Source: Atlanticothrix silvestris CENA357 (GTDB taxonomy: Bacteria; Cyanobacteriota; Cyanobacteriia; Cyanobacteriales; Nostocaceae). Taken from it: DNA of 64,000 nucleotides. Position numbers and translations under genes: made by a program. Shown in pieces: positions 17,843 to 22,021 of the stretch (the first letter of the stretch is position 1; each line of letters opens with the position of its first letter). The stretch lies in the NCBI RefSeq assembly GCF_016056295.1, contig NZ_JAECZB010000049.1, forward strand, positions 124,001 to 188,000, read 5' to 3'. Under the pieces are notes generated by a model. That model was not told the DNA's origin. It saw nothing but the letters and a program-made list of their open reading frames with translations, and ran no database searches.

Positions 17843-18099
17843 TGCAACCCTCTGCCCTCTCAACTCCCGATGCTCAACTCGATTTGCGCGGCACTCCGTG
17901 CCCGATTAATTTTGTACGGACAAAACTACGTCTGGAGCAAATGCCGCCCGGAGGCTTACTGGAAGTATGGTTAGATGCAGGAGAACCAATTGAGCAAGTT
18001 CCTGATAGCTTGGTAATGGCAGGTTATCAAGTAGAACAAATTACAGATTGTGTTGGCTATTTTTCTTTGTTAGTACGCCATCCTGCAACTGCCTCATGA
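17842..18099 (+). CDS. TusA-like sulfurtransferase-fold protein
   Basis: A small protein of 85 residues with the SirA/TusA fold: LDLRGTPCPINFVRTKLRLE carries the conserved Cys20, though the usual CPxP motif reads CPIN here. TusA relays persulfide sulfur for tRNA thiolation or cofactor synthesis; whether this variant does so is unknown. The ATG at 17842 overlaps the dnaJ stop, and its own TGA overlaps the rsgA ATG (ATGA at 18096-18099), so three genes are read as one unit. The GTG one codon upstream, at 17839, is the less likely start. Confidence 0.85.
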   Translation: MQPSALSTPDAQLDLRGTPCPINFVRTKLRLEQMPPGGLLEVWLDAGEPIEQVPDSLVMAGYQVEQITDCVGYFSLLVRHPATAS

Positions 18100-19169
18100 A
18101 AGTTTCTCCTAATGGACAGTTGTTGGGTACAGTTGTAGCTGTACAAGCAAATTTTTACAAAGTCCAGTTGGATGTAGGGAATCAAGAAATAAATTTTCCC
18201 CTTGGCTCTTCCTTTCTTTTATGTACCCGCAGAACACGCTTAAAAAAAATTGGTCAACAGGTAATGGTGGGCGATCGCGTGGTCATAGAAGAGCCAGATT
18301 GGTCTGGAGGACGAGGGGCGATCGCTGATGTTATACCGCGTCAAACTCAGTTAGATCGTCCACCAATCGCCAATACCAATCAAATTCTGCTGGTTTTTGC
18401 TGTTGCTGACCCACCTTTAGAACCTTATCAACTTAGCCGATTTTTAATTAAAGCTGAGTCTACTGAGTTAGATGTATTTTTGTGTCTGAATAAAAGTGAT
18501 TTGGTTTCACTAGAGGTAAAAGAGGAAATTAGCGATCGCCTACTTGCTTGGGGTTATCAACCGCTATTTATCAGTGTCAAAAATGAGATGAATATTGACC
18601 AAGTAGCCAAATATTTGAATAATAAAATTACTGTAATTGCTGGGCCTTCCGGTGTGGGTAAATCTAGTCTAATTAATGCACTGATTCCCAATGCCAACCT
18701 GCGCGTGGGGGAAGTTTCTGGTAAATTAGCTCGTGGTCGCCATACCACCCGCCATGTAGAATTATTTGAATTACCTCACGGTGGTTTACTAGCAGATACT
18801 CCTGGTTTTAATCAGCCTGATTTGGATTGTACCCCAGAAGAATTAGTTCATTATTTCCCAGAGGTCAAACAGAGGTTAGCAGTTGGGAACTGTCGCTTTA
18901 GTGATTGTTTGCATCGAGATGAACCCGATTGTGTAGTTCGGGGAGATTGGGAGCGCTATCAACATTATTTGGAATTTTTAGACGAAGCGATCGCTCGTCA
19001 AACTCAGCTGCATCAACAAGCTGATCCCGAATCAAACATGAAATTAAAATCTAAAGGCAAAGGTCAAAGTCAATACGAACCCAAGCTAGAAAGTAAAAAA
19101 TATCGTCGAGTTTCCCGCAAGACTCAATTGCAAGCGTTACAAGATTTGTACCAAGAAAGCGAAGACTAG
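18096..19169 (+). CDS. rsgA: Ribosome small-subunit-dependent GTPase A (RsgA)
   Basis: A circularly permuted GTPase of 357 residues acting in late 30S maturation. An N-terminal OB fold (GTVVAVQANFYKVQLD) precedes the permuted G motifs: NKSD (G4) comes before GPSGVGKSSL (G1) and DTPGFNQPD (G3). A C-terminal zinc knuckle follows (CRFSDCLHRDEPDC). A basic, low-complexity tail (LKSKGKGQSQYEPKLESKKY) ends the protein. The start is the ATG at 18096 overlapping the previous stop; the open frame upstream to a TTG lies inside the TusA-like gene. Part of the tail sequence reappears in decayed form at 20150-20229. Confidence 0.95.
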   Translation: MKVSPNGQLLGTVVAVQANFYKVQLDVGNQEINFPLGSSFLLCTRRTRLKKIGQQVMVGDRVVIEEPDWSGGRGAIADVIPRQTQLDRPPIANTNQILLVFAVADPPLEPYQLSRFLIKAESTELDVFLCLNKSDLVSLEVKEEISDRLLAWGYQPLFISVKNEMNIDQVAKYLNNKITVIAGPSGVGKSSLINALIPNANLRVGEVSGKLARGRHTTRHVELFELPHGGLLADTPGFNQPDLDCTPEELVHYFPEVKQRLAVGNCRFSDCLHRDEPDCVVRGDWERYQHYLEFLDEAIARQTQLHQQADPESNMKLKSKGKGQSQYEPKLESKKYRRVSRKTQLQALQDLYQESED

Positions 19170-19261
19170 GGGCTAGAGACTAGAATGTGTACTTCATCAA
19201 CAAGAAAACCGCTATAGGATAGAGATAAAAAAGTGCGTAGTTTACCGCCGTAGGCATCGCT

Positions 19262-20011
19262 ATGTCTCAATCTCTTGCCAGCAAATCTCAAGCTGATGTC
19301 ACTGATAGTATAATTTTTCCACCAGGTGACATTTACAGTGACGAACCTCCCTTGGAATCTGACTTACACCGCGAACAAATCGATTTACTAATTCGCCTCA
19401 TTAAGTGGTGGTGGCGCGATCATGAAGACTTCTATGCTACTGGCAACTTGACTATTTATTTTAGTCCTAACCAAAAAAAGTCAGAAGAATTTCGAGGTCC
19501 TGATTTTTTTGTGGTTTTAGATGCAGAAAAAAAAGACCGTAAAAGCTGGGTTGTGTGGCAAGAAGACGGGAAATACCCAAATGTGATTATAGAATTATTA
19601 TCTGATTCCACTGCCTCGGTTGATAAAGGCCTGAAAAAGCAGATATACCAGAACACATTTCGCACTCCTGATTATTTCTGGTTTGACCCAGTTAGCTGGG
19701 AATTACAAGGATTTCACTTAGTTGATGGTCAGTACCAAGAACTGATACCCAGTGCTGATGGTTGGTTATGGAGTCAGCAGTTAGAGCTGTATTTGGGAGT
19801 CGAGTCTGGTAAACTACGTTTTTTTACCTCAGATGGGCAAATGGTAATGTTGCCAGAGGAGGAATCAAATCAACAATTACAGCAAACCAACCAACAATTA
19901 CAGCAAACCAACCAACAATTACAGCAAGCCAACCAACAATTAGAACAGGAACGTCAACGGGCTGAAATATTAGCACAAAAGCTAAGAGCCGCAGGCATTG
20001 AACCTGAGTAA
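19262..20011 (+). CDS. Uma2 family endonuclease-fold protein (DUF820) with coiled-coil tail
   Basis: A protein of 249 residues. The core (about 40-190) is the PD-(D/E)XK-like Uma2 fold that cyanobacteria carry in many copies: GPDFFVVLDAEKKDRKSW, then VIIELLSDSTASVDKGLKKQ with the catalytic Glu and Lys, then TPDYFWFDP. The C-terminus is a Gln-rich coiled coil made by a 21-bp tandem repeat (19871-19933) coding NQQLQQT units. Activity and target are not established for the family. It stands alone after rsgA, and fragments of a second copy follow it. Confidence 0.88.
   Translation: MSQSLASKSQADVTDSIIFPPGDIYSDEPPLESDLHREQIDLLIRLIKWWWRDHEDFYATGNLTIYFSPNQKKSEEFRGPDFFVVLDAEKKDRKSWVVWQEDGKYPNVIIELLSDSTASVDKGLKKQIYQNTFRTPDYFWFDPVSWELQGFHLVDGQYQELIPSADGWLWSQQLELYLGVESGKLRFFTSDGQMVMLPEEESNQQLQQTNQQLQQTNQQLQQANQQLEQERQRAEILAQKLRAAGIEPE
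19871..19949 (+). repeat. In-frame 21-bp tandem repeat in the Uma2 gene
   Basis: Three units of CAACAATTACAGCAAACCAAC (one base differs in the third), then a partial fourth, encoding a heptad-length QQLQQTN repeat. The unit length of seven codons preserves a coiled-coil register. Confidence 0.85.
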
Positions 20012-20043
20012 ATATTCTAATTAAGCTTGGGGAAAATAGTGCT

Positions 20044-20145
20044 ATGAACCAAACATTCCCTAATCAAGTCCGTTGGACAACCTCCGACTTAGAATTACTC
20101 GCAGCTGATGCATGGAATGTTCAGGTTCAGCGCTTTTTTTGCTAA
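20044..20145 (+). pseudogene. N-terminal fragment of a second Uma2 gene
   Basis: An ATG at 20044 opens 33 codons, including VRWTTSDLELLAADAW, and ends in TAA at 20145. RWTTxDLELL at this place resembles the start of typical Uma2 proteins, which would continue into YEIIDGEL; here it breaks off. It lies 33 bp past the intact Uma2 gene and directly before a copy of rsgA tail sequence. Confidence 0.5.
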
Positions 20146-20149
20146 CCTA

Positions 20150-20229
20150 GCGATCGCTCGTCAATCTCAGTTTCACCAACAAGCTGATTCTAGATAAAAT
20201 TTCAAGACATGTACTAAGAAAGCGAGGCA
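20150..20229 (+). pseudogene. Decayed duplicate of the rsgA 3' end
   Basis: From GCGATCGCTCGTCAA at 20150 the sequence follows the rsgA coding region from 18987 for about 40 bp with four mismatches, loses the middle, and resumes as aagacatgtactaagaaagc (20204-20223), matching the rsgA 3' end at 19141-19160. About 80 bp therefore represent both ends of the last 180 bp of rsgA. Confidence 0.65.
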
Positions 20230-20431
20230 GGAATAAGGATAACTTTAGGAGGTGCAGTTGAGAGATGGGGAGATTAACTTTATGGCTACTCAACACTGTA
20301 TTCTGGTGTAGAGCGAGATTAATTATAAAGAAATCAGTAAATACTGCTACGATCCCGATAAAGTCTTAAAATATTGTTAATTTCTGCCAACCCCCCAACC
20401 TTCAACTTACAAGTATTACCCCACAATCACT

Positions 20432-22021
20432 ATGGCTATCGGCTACGTCGCGCTTGTACTCCATGCACACTTGCCCTTCGTTCGTCACCCAGAAAGTGAC
20501 TACGTGCTGGAGGAAGAATGGCTTTATGAAGCCATCACCGAAACATACATTCCCTTACTGAAAGTATTTGAGGGCTTAAAGCGAGACGGCATTGACTTTA
20601 AAATCACGATGAGTATGACACCGCCTCTAGTGTCAATGCTCCGTGATCCCTTACTGCAAGAACGCTATGATATACACTTAGCCCAACTAGAAGAACTTGT
20701 AGAGCTAGAAGCCGAACGCAATGTCCATAATGGGCATATTCGTTATTTAGCCGAACATTACGCTACTGAATTTAACGAAGCGCGTCAGCTATGGGAACGC
20801 TACAACGGTGATTTGGTGACAGCTTTTAAGCAGTTCCAAGACACCAACAATTTAGAAATTATCACTTGTGGTGCTACCCACGGCTATTTGCCGTTGATGA
20901 AGATGTATCCGCAAGCTGTGTGGGCACAAATTCAGGTAGCTTGTGAACATTACGAGCAAACATTTGGACAAGCACCCAGAGGTATTTGGTTGCCGGAATG
21001 CGCCTACTACGAAGGCATGGAGCGAATGCTGGCTGATGCGGGGTTGCGTTATTTTCTCACTGATGGGCATGGCATTCTTTATGCCCGTCCGCGTCCGCGG
21101 TTTGGCACTTATGCGCCAATTTTTACAGAAACTGGTGTTGCTGCCTTCGGTCGAGATCATGAATCTTCGCAACAAGTATGGTCTTCTGAAGTGGGCTATC
21201 CTGGAGCAGCAGAATATCGAGAATTTTACAAAGATTTGGGCTGGGAAGCAGAATATGAGTACATTAAGCCCTACATCATGCCCAATGGTCAGCGGAAAAA
21301 TACAGGCATTAAGTATCACAAAATTACTGGACGTGGTTTAGGATTGGCAGATAAGGCACTCTATGACCCTTATTGGGCAAGAGAAAAAGCGGCTGAACAT
21401 GCTGCCAATTTTATGTATAATCGCGAGCGACAAGCCGAACACCTCCACGGGATCATGCAGCGTCCGCCGATTATTGTTTCGCCTTACGACGCAGAGCTAT
21501 TTGGGCATTGGTGGTATGAAGGCCCTTGGTTTATTGATTATTTGTTCCGTAAATCATGGTATGACCAAGGAACTTATGCAATGACCCATTTGGCAGATTA
21601 TTTAAAGGCAGAACCAACTCAGCAAATCTGCCGTCCTTCACAATCGAGTTGGGGTTATAAGGGTTTCCACGAATATTGGTTAAATGAGACAAATGCCTGG
21701 ATTTACCCGCATTTACACAAAGCGACCGAGCGCATGATTGAAATCGCTCATTTAGAACCAGAAGATGAATTGCAGTGGAAAGCGCTGAATCAAGCTGCAA
21801 GGGAACTTTTATTAGCACAATCTTCTGACTGGGCGTTTATTATGCGGACAGGAACAATGGTACCCTATGCTGTCAGGCGGACGCGATCGCACTTAATGCG
21901 GTTTAATAAACTCTATGAAGACGTAAAAATCGGCAAAGTTGACAGTGGTTGGTTGGAAAAAGTAGAGTTAATGGACAATATCTTTCCCCAAATCAACTAT
22001 CGTGTTTACCGTCCGTTGTAA
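20432..22021 (+). CDS. Glycoside hydrolase family 57 1,4-alpha-glucan branching enzyme
   Basis: A GH57 protein of 529 residues with a C-terminal DUF1957 domain. The N-terminal barrel opens with VLHAHLPFVRHPE (His11, His13), the nucleophile Glu189 lies in WLPEC, and the acid/base Asp353 is in SPYDAELFGHWWYEGP. These are the catalytic positions of characterised GH57 branching enzymes, which move alpha-1,4-glucan segments to alpha-1,6 positions in glycogen. The length fits the branching members (about 520-560 residues) rather than the longer amylopullulanases. The C-terminal region has SSWGYKGFHEYWLN. It would act on storage glycogen alongside GlgB-type enzymes. A strong terminator follows. Confidence 0.9.
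   Translation: MAIGYVALVLHAHLPFVRHPESDYVLEEEWLYEAITETYIPLLKVFEGLKRDGIDFKITMSMTPPLVSMLRDPLLQERYDIHLAQLEELVELEAERNVHNGHIRYLAEHYATEFNEARQLWERYNGDLVTAFKQFQDTNNLEIITCGATHGYLPLMKMYPQAVWAQIQVACEHYEQTFGQAPRGIWLPECAYYEGMERMLADAGLRYFLTDGHGILYARPRPRFGTYAPIFTETGVAAFGRDHESSQQVWSSEVGYPGAAEYREFYKDLGWEAEYEYIKPYIMPNGQRKNTGIKYHKITGRGLGLADKALYDPYWAREKAAEHAANFMYNRERQAEHLHGIMQRPPIIVSPYDAELFGHWWYEGPWFIDYLFRKSWYDQGTYAMTHLADYLKAEPTQQICRPSQSSWGYKGFHEYWLNETNAWIYPHLHKATERMIEIAHLEPEDELQWKALNQAARELLLAQSSDWAFIMRTGTMVPYAVRRTRSHLMRFNKLYEDVKIGKVDSGWLEKVELMDNIFPQINYRVYRPL

Follow-up and report, generated by a model that had tools for sequence, protein, structure and literature searches.

The rsgA-GH57 locus

The window, by which we mean the whole 64-kb stretch of cyanobacterial DNA analysed, contains a compact locus whose features all lie on the plus strand. 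An intact rsgA gene for the ribosome-associated GTPase (18096–19169) was recognized as an open reading frame with a 191-bit match to PF03193 (RsgA_GTPase). It is followed by an intact Uma2-family gene of 249 aa, here called UmaA (19262–20011), which scored 84.1 bits against PF05685, where the gathering cut-off is 27. PF05685 is the Uma2 family of putative restriction endonucleases. Beyond UmaA lie a 33-codon open reading frame (20044–20145), a segment resembling the end of rsgA (20149–20230) and a conserved stretch (20318–20431). The right-hand border is a GH57 gene of the 1,4-alpha-glucan branching enzyme type (20432–22021; PF03065, 133 bits; PF09210, 137 bits). Near the end of UmaA, a short tandem repeat at 19868–19950 codes for NQQLQQT/A, with fewer units in the related genome G034. 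No mention of this locus was found among the papers listed, which is not proof of absence.

A decayed copy of the rsgA 3′ end

The initial annotation held that the end of rsgA (18987–19169) recurs in shortened form at 20150–20229, with four mismatches in the first ~40 bp, and this was borne out by a search of the window. Positions 20149–20188 matched 18986–19025 without gaps at 36 of 40 bases (E 3.4e-9). A second, collinear piece, 20200–20225, matched 19137–19162 at 22 of 26 bases (E 0.002), a match that is weak when taken alone. Between the two pieces, about 110 bp of the parent rsgA were absent from the copy. The decayed copy was thus assigned to 20149–20230, clear in its first piece and weak in its second, and it was also found at the equivalent position in relatives. 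When the window's own genome was searched with 19990–20440, the only matches were the segment itself and the end of rsgA.

The repeated part of the functional rsgA end opens with the palindromic HIP1 octamer GCGATCGC at 18987–18994. This octamer occurs 63 times in the 64-kb window, as would favour a chance similarity carried by so common a word. Pairwise alignment nevertheless gave identity above that of shuffled sequence: the local score of 18900–19400 against 20012–20431 was 60, and among 1000 dinucleotide-shuffled sequences none scored as high, the maximum being 34. With the octamer excluded (18995–19169 against 20158–20230) the score was 42 and the best of 1000 dinucleotide shuffles was 28. 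Longer copies at the same place in relatives likewise argue against chance. A HIP1-borne chance match was ruled out by the shuffles with and without the octamer, and we regard it as exceedingly improbable.

The reading frame at 20044 is a collapsed UmaB

Comparison with G034 was used to identify the 33-codon frame. G034 encodes a complete Uma2-family protein, UmaB, of 189 aa, which scored 121.6 bits against PF05685 and whose terminal VQVQRFFC and stop recur in the window's frame. The last 28 nt of 20044–20145 code for this ending, and hence for the end of UmaB. The frame consists of the first 74 and the last 28 nt of the gene, with 468 bp missing in frame after 20117 (nt 74), and 92 of its 102 bases match UmaB of G034. 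While UmaA and the intact G034 UmaB far exceed the family cut-off, the window's 33-aa remnant matched no Pfam family at E up to 0.1. Pairwise similarity between UmaA and UmaB was not significant (BLASTP best E 0.44), though both belong to PF05685. A copy of the UmaA start, considered as the source of the frame, was rejected on this result and on the identity with UmaB seen in G034.

In G034 the order is UmaA, intact UmaB, a copy of the rsgA 3′ end directly after the UmaB stop, the conserved stretch (94% identical to 20318–20431 of the window and adjoining the copy) and GH57. The initial annotation had read this part of the window as a Uma2-like start of 33 codons followed, in scrambled order, by an rsgA end. 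A Uma2-family start does lie at 20044, though it is more than a start, as the gene's own end is present too, and the supposed scrambling did not hold. The order of a Uma2 start followed by an rsgA end arose because of a deletion inside UmaB, not by duplication. The intact UmaB of G034, together with the lack of similarity to UmaA, indicates that the gene order is unscrambled and that the Uma2 piece was not copied from its neighbour. By these comparisons the frame at 20044 is a UmaB pseudogene that has lost its middle and not a duplicated rsgA-Uma2 junction. What looks like a gene start joined to the end of another gene can turn out to be one internally deleted pseudogene, a fact that comes to light only by comparison with a relative.

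The rsgA gene of G034 lies about 3.2 Mb from its UmaA-UmaB-GH57 genes (L097, L098), so the copy has remained with UmaB and GH57 even after rsgA moved. By eye, UmaA of G034 shows a TAG where the window's UmaA codes for Trp.

Distribution of the copy among relatives

A total of 217 genomes of the family were searched, and 79 loci, one per genome, were picked by hand among the matches listed, so that the fractions given here do not amount to a survey. The window's genus is represented by one genome. In 74 of the 79, rsgA and GH57 occur together on one locus. Outside these 74 are G034 (rsgA elsewhere), G165 and G116 (no rsgA in the stretch), G113 (GH57 marker not found, strand unset) and G078 (no GH57 in the stretch). 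Genomes G142, G164, G035, G025 and G027 are not among the mapped loci.

A copy was counted in the 74 intervals where its score exceeded that of all 370 shuffled intervals (best shuffle 31.0 bits). By this measure a copy of the rsgA 3′ end lies between rsgA and GH57 in 23 of the 74 hand-picked intervals, the other 51 showing none above the threshold. A copy spotted by eye in G074 (27.4 bits) and one in G006 (28.3 bits) fell below the best shuffle and were not counted. The copies in relatives rule out an event private to the window's genome. Bearers include G020 (taken as Tolypothrix brevis), G115 (Hassallia byssoidea), G145 (Desmonostoc geniculatum) and several genomes taken as Nostoc (G141, G154, G156, G168, G170). 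The rsgA-GH57 interval is enlarged in G020 (L100, 7.0 kb) and G115 (L143, 9.3 kb), and in both the copy sits towards the left.

The usual order in relatives is rsgA-UmaA-UmaB-copy-GH57. In 19 of the 23 genomes, the window's included, a complete or fragmentary UmaB stands just ahead of the copy; pieces of UmaA precede it in G155 and G166, and it stands directly after rsgA in G162 and G172. Past the UmaB stop, G000, G034, G020, G115 and the Nostoc group show similar junctions. A 3′ end of UmaB was listed in 35 genomes including the window's (that of G000 placed by hand): the 19 copy-bearers, G034, which also has a copy, and 15 genomes with no copy above the threshold. The latter figure, like the 51 intervals above, counts against the interpretation given below.

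Two genomes, G017 (L103) and G221 (L147), carry three tandem UmaA genes between rsgA and UmaB, with long self-matches of 93–96%, and no copy above the threshold. These arrays agree with the earlier proposal that Uma2 genes multiply locally beside rsgA, for which the piece at 20044, not being a copy of its neighbour, offers no example. Of 80 UmaA loci, 54 lack rsgA, and at none of these was a UmaB match found (tblastn E 1e-10); joint movement of UmaA and UmaB was rejected on this count. One of the 54, L220, belongs to the rsgA-GH57 locus itself, interrupted by the end of a contig, since GH57 is present.

Age and relationships of the copies

For 20 of 21 copies, comparison could be made with the functional rsgA end of the same genome, the starts and ends having been set by hand. 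The best match of 16 of these 20 was the copy of another genome, above any of 75 functional rsgA ends. Copies of G156 and G168 were 0.97 identical to each other, against 0.82 and 0.81 to their own ends; those of G149 and G150, 0.95 against 0.73 and 0.75; and those of G020 and G115, 0.91 against 0.72 and 0.77. Six copies (G140, G154, G155, G156, G168, G186) have one internal gap in common. Resemblance of copy to copy and a common gap are what an old, inherited event predicts. The data thus point to an old, shared duplication that would have been decaying separately in each lineage.

Some copies were nearer to functional ends than to other copies, namely those of G170 (0.94 against 0.87), G182 (0.91 against 0.87), G172 and G078. 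For the G170 copy the nearest matches were the ends of G138, G151, G152 and G169 (0.93–0.94), its own end ranking 20 of 75 at 0.91. A tree of rsgA 3′ ends (226 columns) left 27 of 47 inner branches open, with bootstrap values not settled. The G170 and G182 copies grouped in this poorly resolved tree with functional ends of the main clade, and the tree was set aside as a means of placing them. Their closeness to functional ends may indicate that the two ends later exchanged sequence.

A tree of UmaA was likewise rejected as a way to decide between routes of origin. Its 28 rows with UmaB next to UmaA and 12 without showed no single split by downstream type (8 changes, at least 5 of them forced). 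G178 and G179, which have no UmaB, nest within UmaB-bearing rows; this fits exchange between copies and proves nothing.

Extent of the duplicated unit

Longer copies in relatives were examined for the limits of the unit. The G170 copy is 218 bp long, is 89% identical to its own rsgA end and extends past the rsgA stop codon. That of G182 (353 columns, 75%) crosses the rsgA-UmaA spacer to the start of UmaA, with the decayed tail of a UmaA gene behind it; such tails were seen in other genomes too, after UmaB or shortly after rsgA. These extents and tails indicate that the duplicated unit held at least the rsgA 3′ end and UmaA. In the stretches inspected by eye, no trace of a second UmaB followed the second UmaA tail.

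In G078, taken as Scytonema sp. RU_4_4, a further copy is fresh (211 bp at 98%) and has a different edge, and it clearly represents a separate, recent event. At L148:2538-3884 this copy, comprising the rsgA end, the spacer and the UmaA start, runs into an open reading frame that opens with UmaA codons (MSEHLAANIVVQD). The frame continues as a beta-lactamase-family protein (PF00144) of 391 aa, its first codons supplied by the copy. This is possibly a gene fusion, or a join made in assembling the MAG.

Second copies in direct orientation that cross a gene boundary were seen in G182, G170 and G078; the window retains the rsgA end alone. The initial annotation, which saw here a decaying duplicate of the rsgA-Uma2 junction, was right in outline and wrong about the gene order and the Uma2 piece at 20044, which is UmaB.

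Left edge of the copy and HIP1

The left edge falls at marker position 85–90 in 17 of the 23 copies and in G034, HIP1 occupying positions 87–94. It lies at 86 in the window, G034, G020 and G115, at 85 in G140 and at 90 in the remaining 13 genomes. Copies in G167, G171 and G173 were detected only with a query beginning at position 86. In G162, G166 and G172 the edge lies to the right of HIP1, and that of G078 differs as well.

Just behind the UmaB stop, for example at 2480–2520 of L137 (G170), a short repeat of the TAGGCGTAGCCCGCCGTAGGC type separates nt 3 from nt 4 of the HIP1 with which the copy begins. A pattern for this repeat matched 14 of the 79 loci, and the repeat lies inside HIP1 in many of the 13 genomes with an edge at position 90. 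SDR5 is described as inserting exactly between nt 3 and 4 of HIP1 (PMC4390886). The same paper reports some indication that HIP1 acts in site-specific recombination and, with lower efficiency, in illegitimate recombination, and states that no evidence links it to homologous recombination (PMC4390886).

Origin of the arrangement

We interpret the segment at 20149–20230 as a fossil of an old local duplication at the rsgA-GH57 locus, with a probability of about 0.9. A single event may have founded the common arrangement, through an exchange that used homology in rsgA at one end and was completed at the other by joining illegitimately at HIP1. This old recombination would have set UmaA and UmaB between the body of rsgA and a second rsgA 3′ end, a unit of rsgA 3′ end-UmaA-UmaB having been inserted ahead of an existing rsgA end-UmaA2-GH57. 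The product would be rsgA-UmaA-UmaB-rsgA3′copy-UmaA2-GH57. The rsgA gene would have remained whole because the incoming unit brought its own rsgA 3′ end, and the spare end and second UmaA, functionless, would have decayed. UmaB further collapsed to 33 codons in the window's genome by the in-frame deletion. Such an exchange would account for the intact state of rsgA, for its spare end, for the usual edge at HIP1 and for the missing second UmaB in the stretches read. The route, taken by itself, falls a little short of an even chance, and the full statement, fossil and exchange route combined, we consider evenly balanced. Besides the copy-less genomes, the copies of G170, G182 and G172, the edges to the right of HIP1 and the UmaA tree with its lack of a single split speak against it.

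Nearly as much would be explained by an in situ tandem duplication of the rsgA 3′ end and UmaA, with or without UmaB, through unequal exchange between sister chromosomes, UmaB being gained or its second copy lost and the second UmaA decaying. This is the idea of the initial annotation taken one step further back. It predicts the same structure, and the locus does duplicate in this manner, as seen in the three UmaA genes of G017 and G221 and the fresh copy of G078. Since no UmaA-UmaB pair was seen at the 54 rsgA-less UmaA loci above, the pair may have been assembled at the rsgA locus. In the stretches read by eye, the lack of any further UmaB behind the second UmaA tail argues against tandem duplication, as do the spacers behind the two types of UmaA, which differ by eye, and we hold this tandem route as a tentative possibility. 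Independent, recurrent duplications of the rsgA end across genera, at a site prone to them, for example at HIP1, would suit the separate event with another left edge in G078 and the G170 and G182 copies that look nearer to functional ends. Against recurrence stand the like UmaB-stop junctions of G000, G034, G020, G115 and the Nostoc group, the 16 of 20 copies nearest to other copies and the gap that six have in common, and we judge it quite unlikely.

Decaying local duplications with pseudogenes occur in bacterial genomes, and the direct repeat of a gene end, the truncated second gene copy and the lineage-specific deletions found here resemble them. The difference is that a single locus shows the stages, G078 being fresh, G170 and G182 nearly intact and the window reduced to a 40-bp vestige. 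What the relatives resolve here in unusual detail is an ordinary case of genome decay that followed an old local duplication, and the series shows small Uma2 genes gained and lost beside a housekeeping gene. Integrative elements insert at the 3′ ends of housekeeping genes and restore the gene, and the locus is similar in its whole rsgA with a direct repeat of the 3′ end on the far side. It differs from them in that UmaA is the only intact gene found between the window's rsgA and GH57, no recombinase being among the window's open reading frames scanned there, and in that the repeated end reaches up to 350 bp, unlike a short att site.

The repeated rsgA 3′ ends may also have served as a gene-sparing exchange site, at which a Uma2 pair would be added at HIP1 and removed by recombination from end to end, leaving rsgA whole. 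We consider this unlikely, and since G169 keeps both Uma2 genes and yet matches the G170 copy at 0.93, and the tree of rsgA 3′ ends gives no decision, it is a lead only. In G138, G151 and G152 no Uma2 gene was found by DNA match, and their rsgA ends match the G170 copy at 0.93–0.94; if such a site existed, these three genomes would be products of Uma2 removal.
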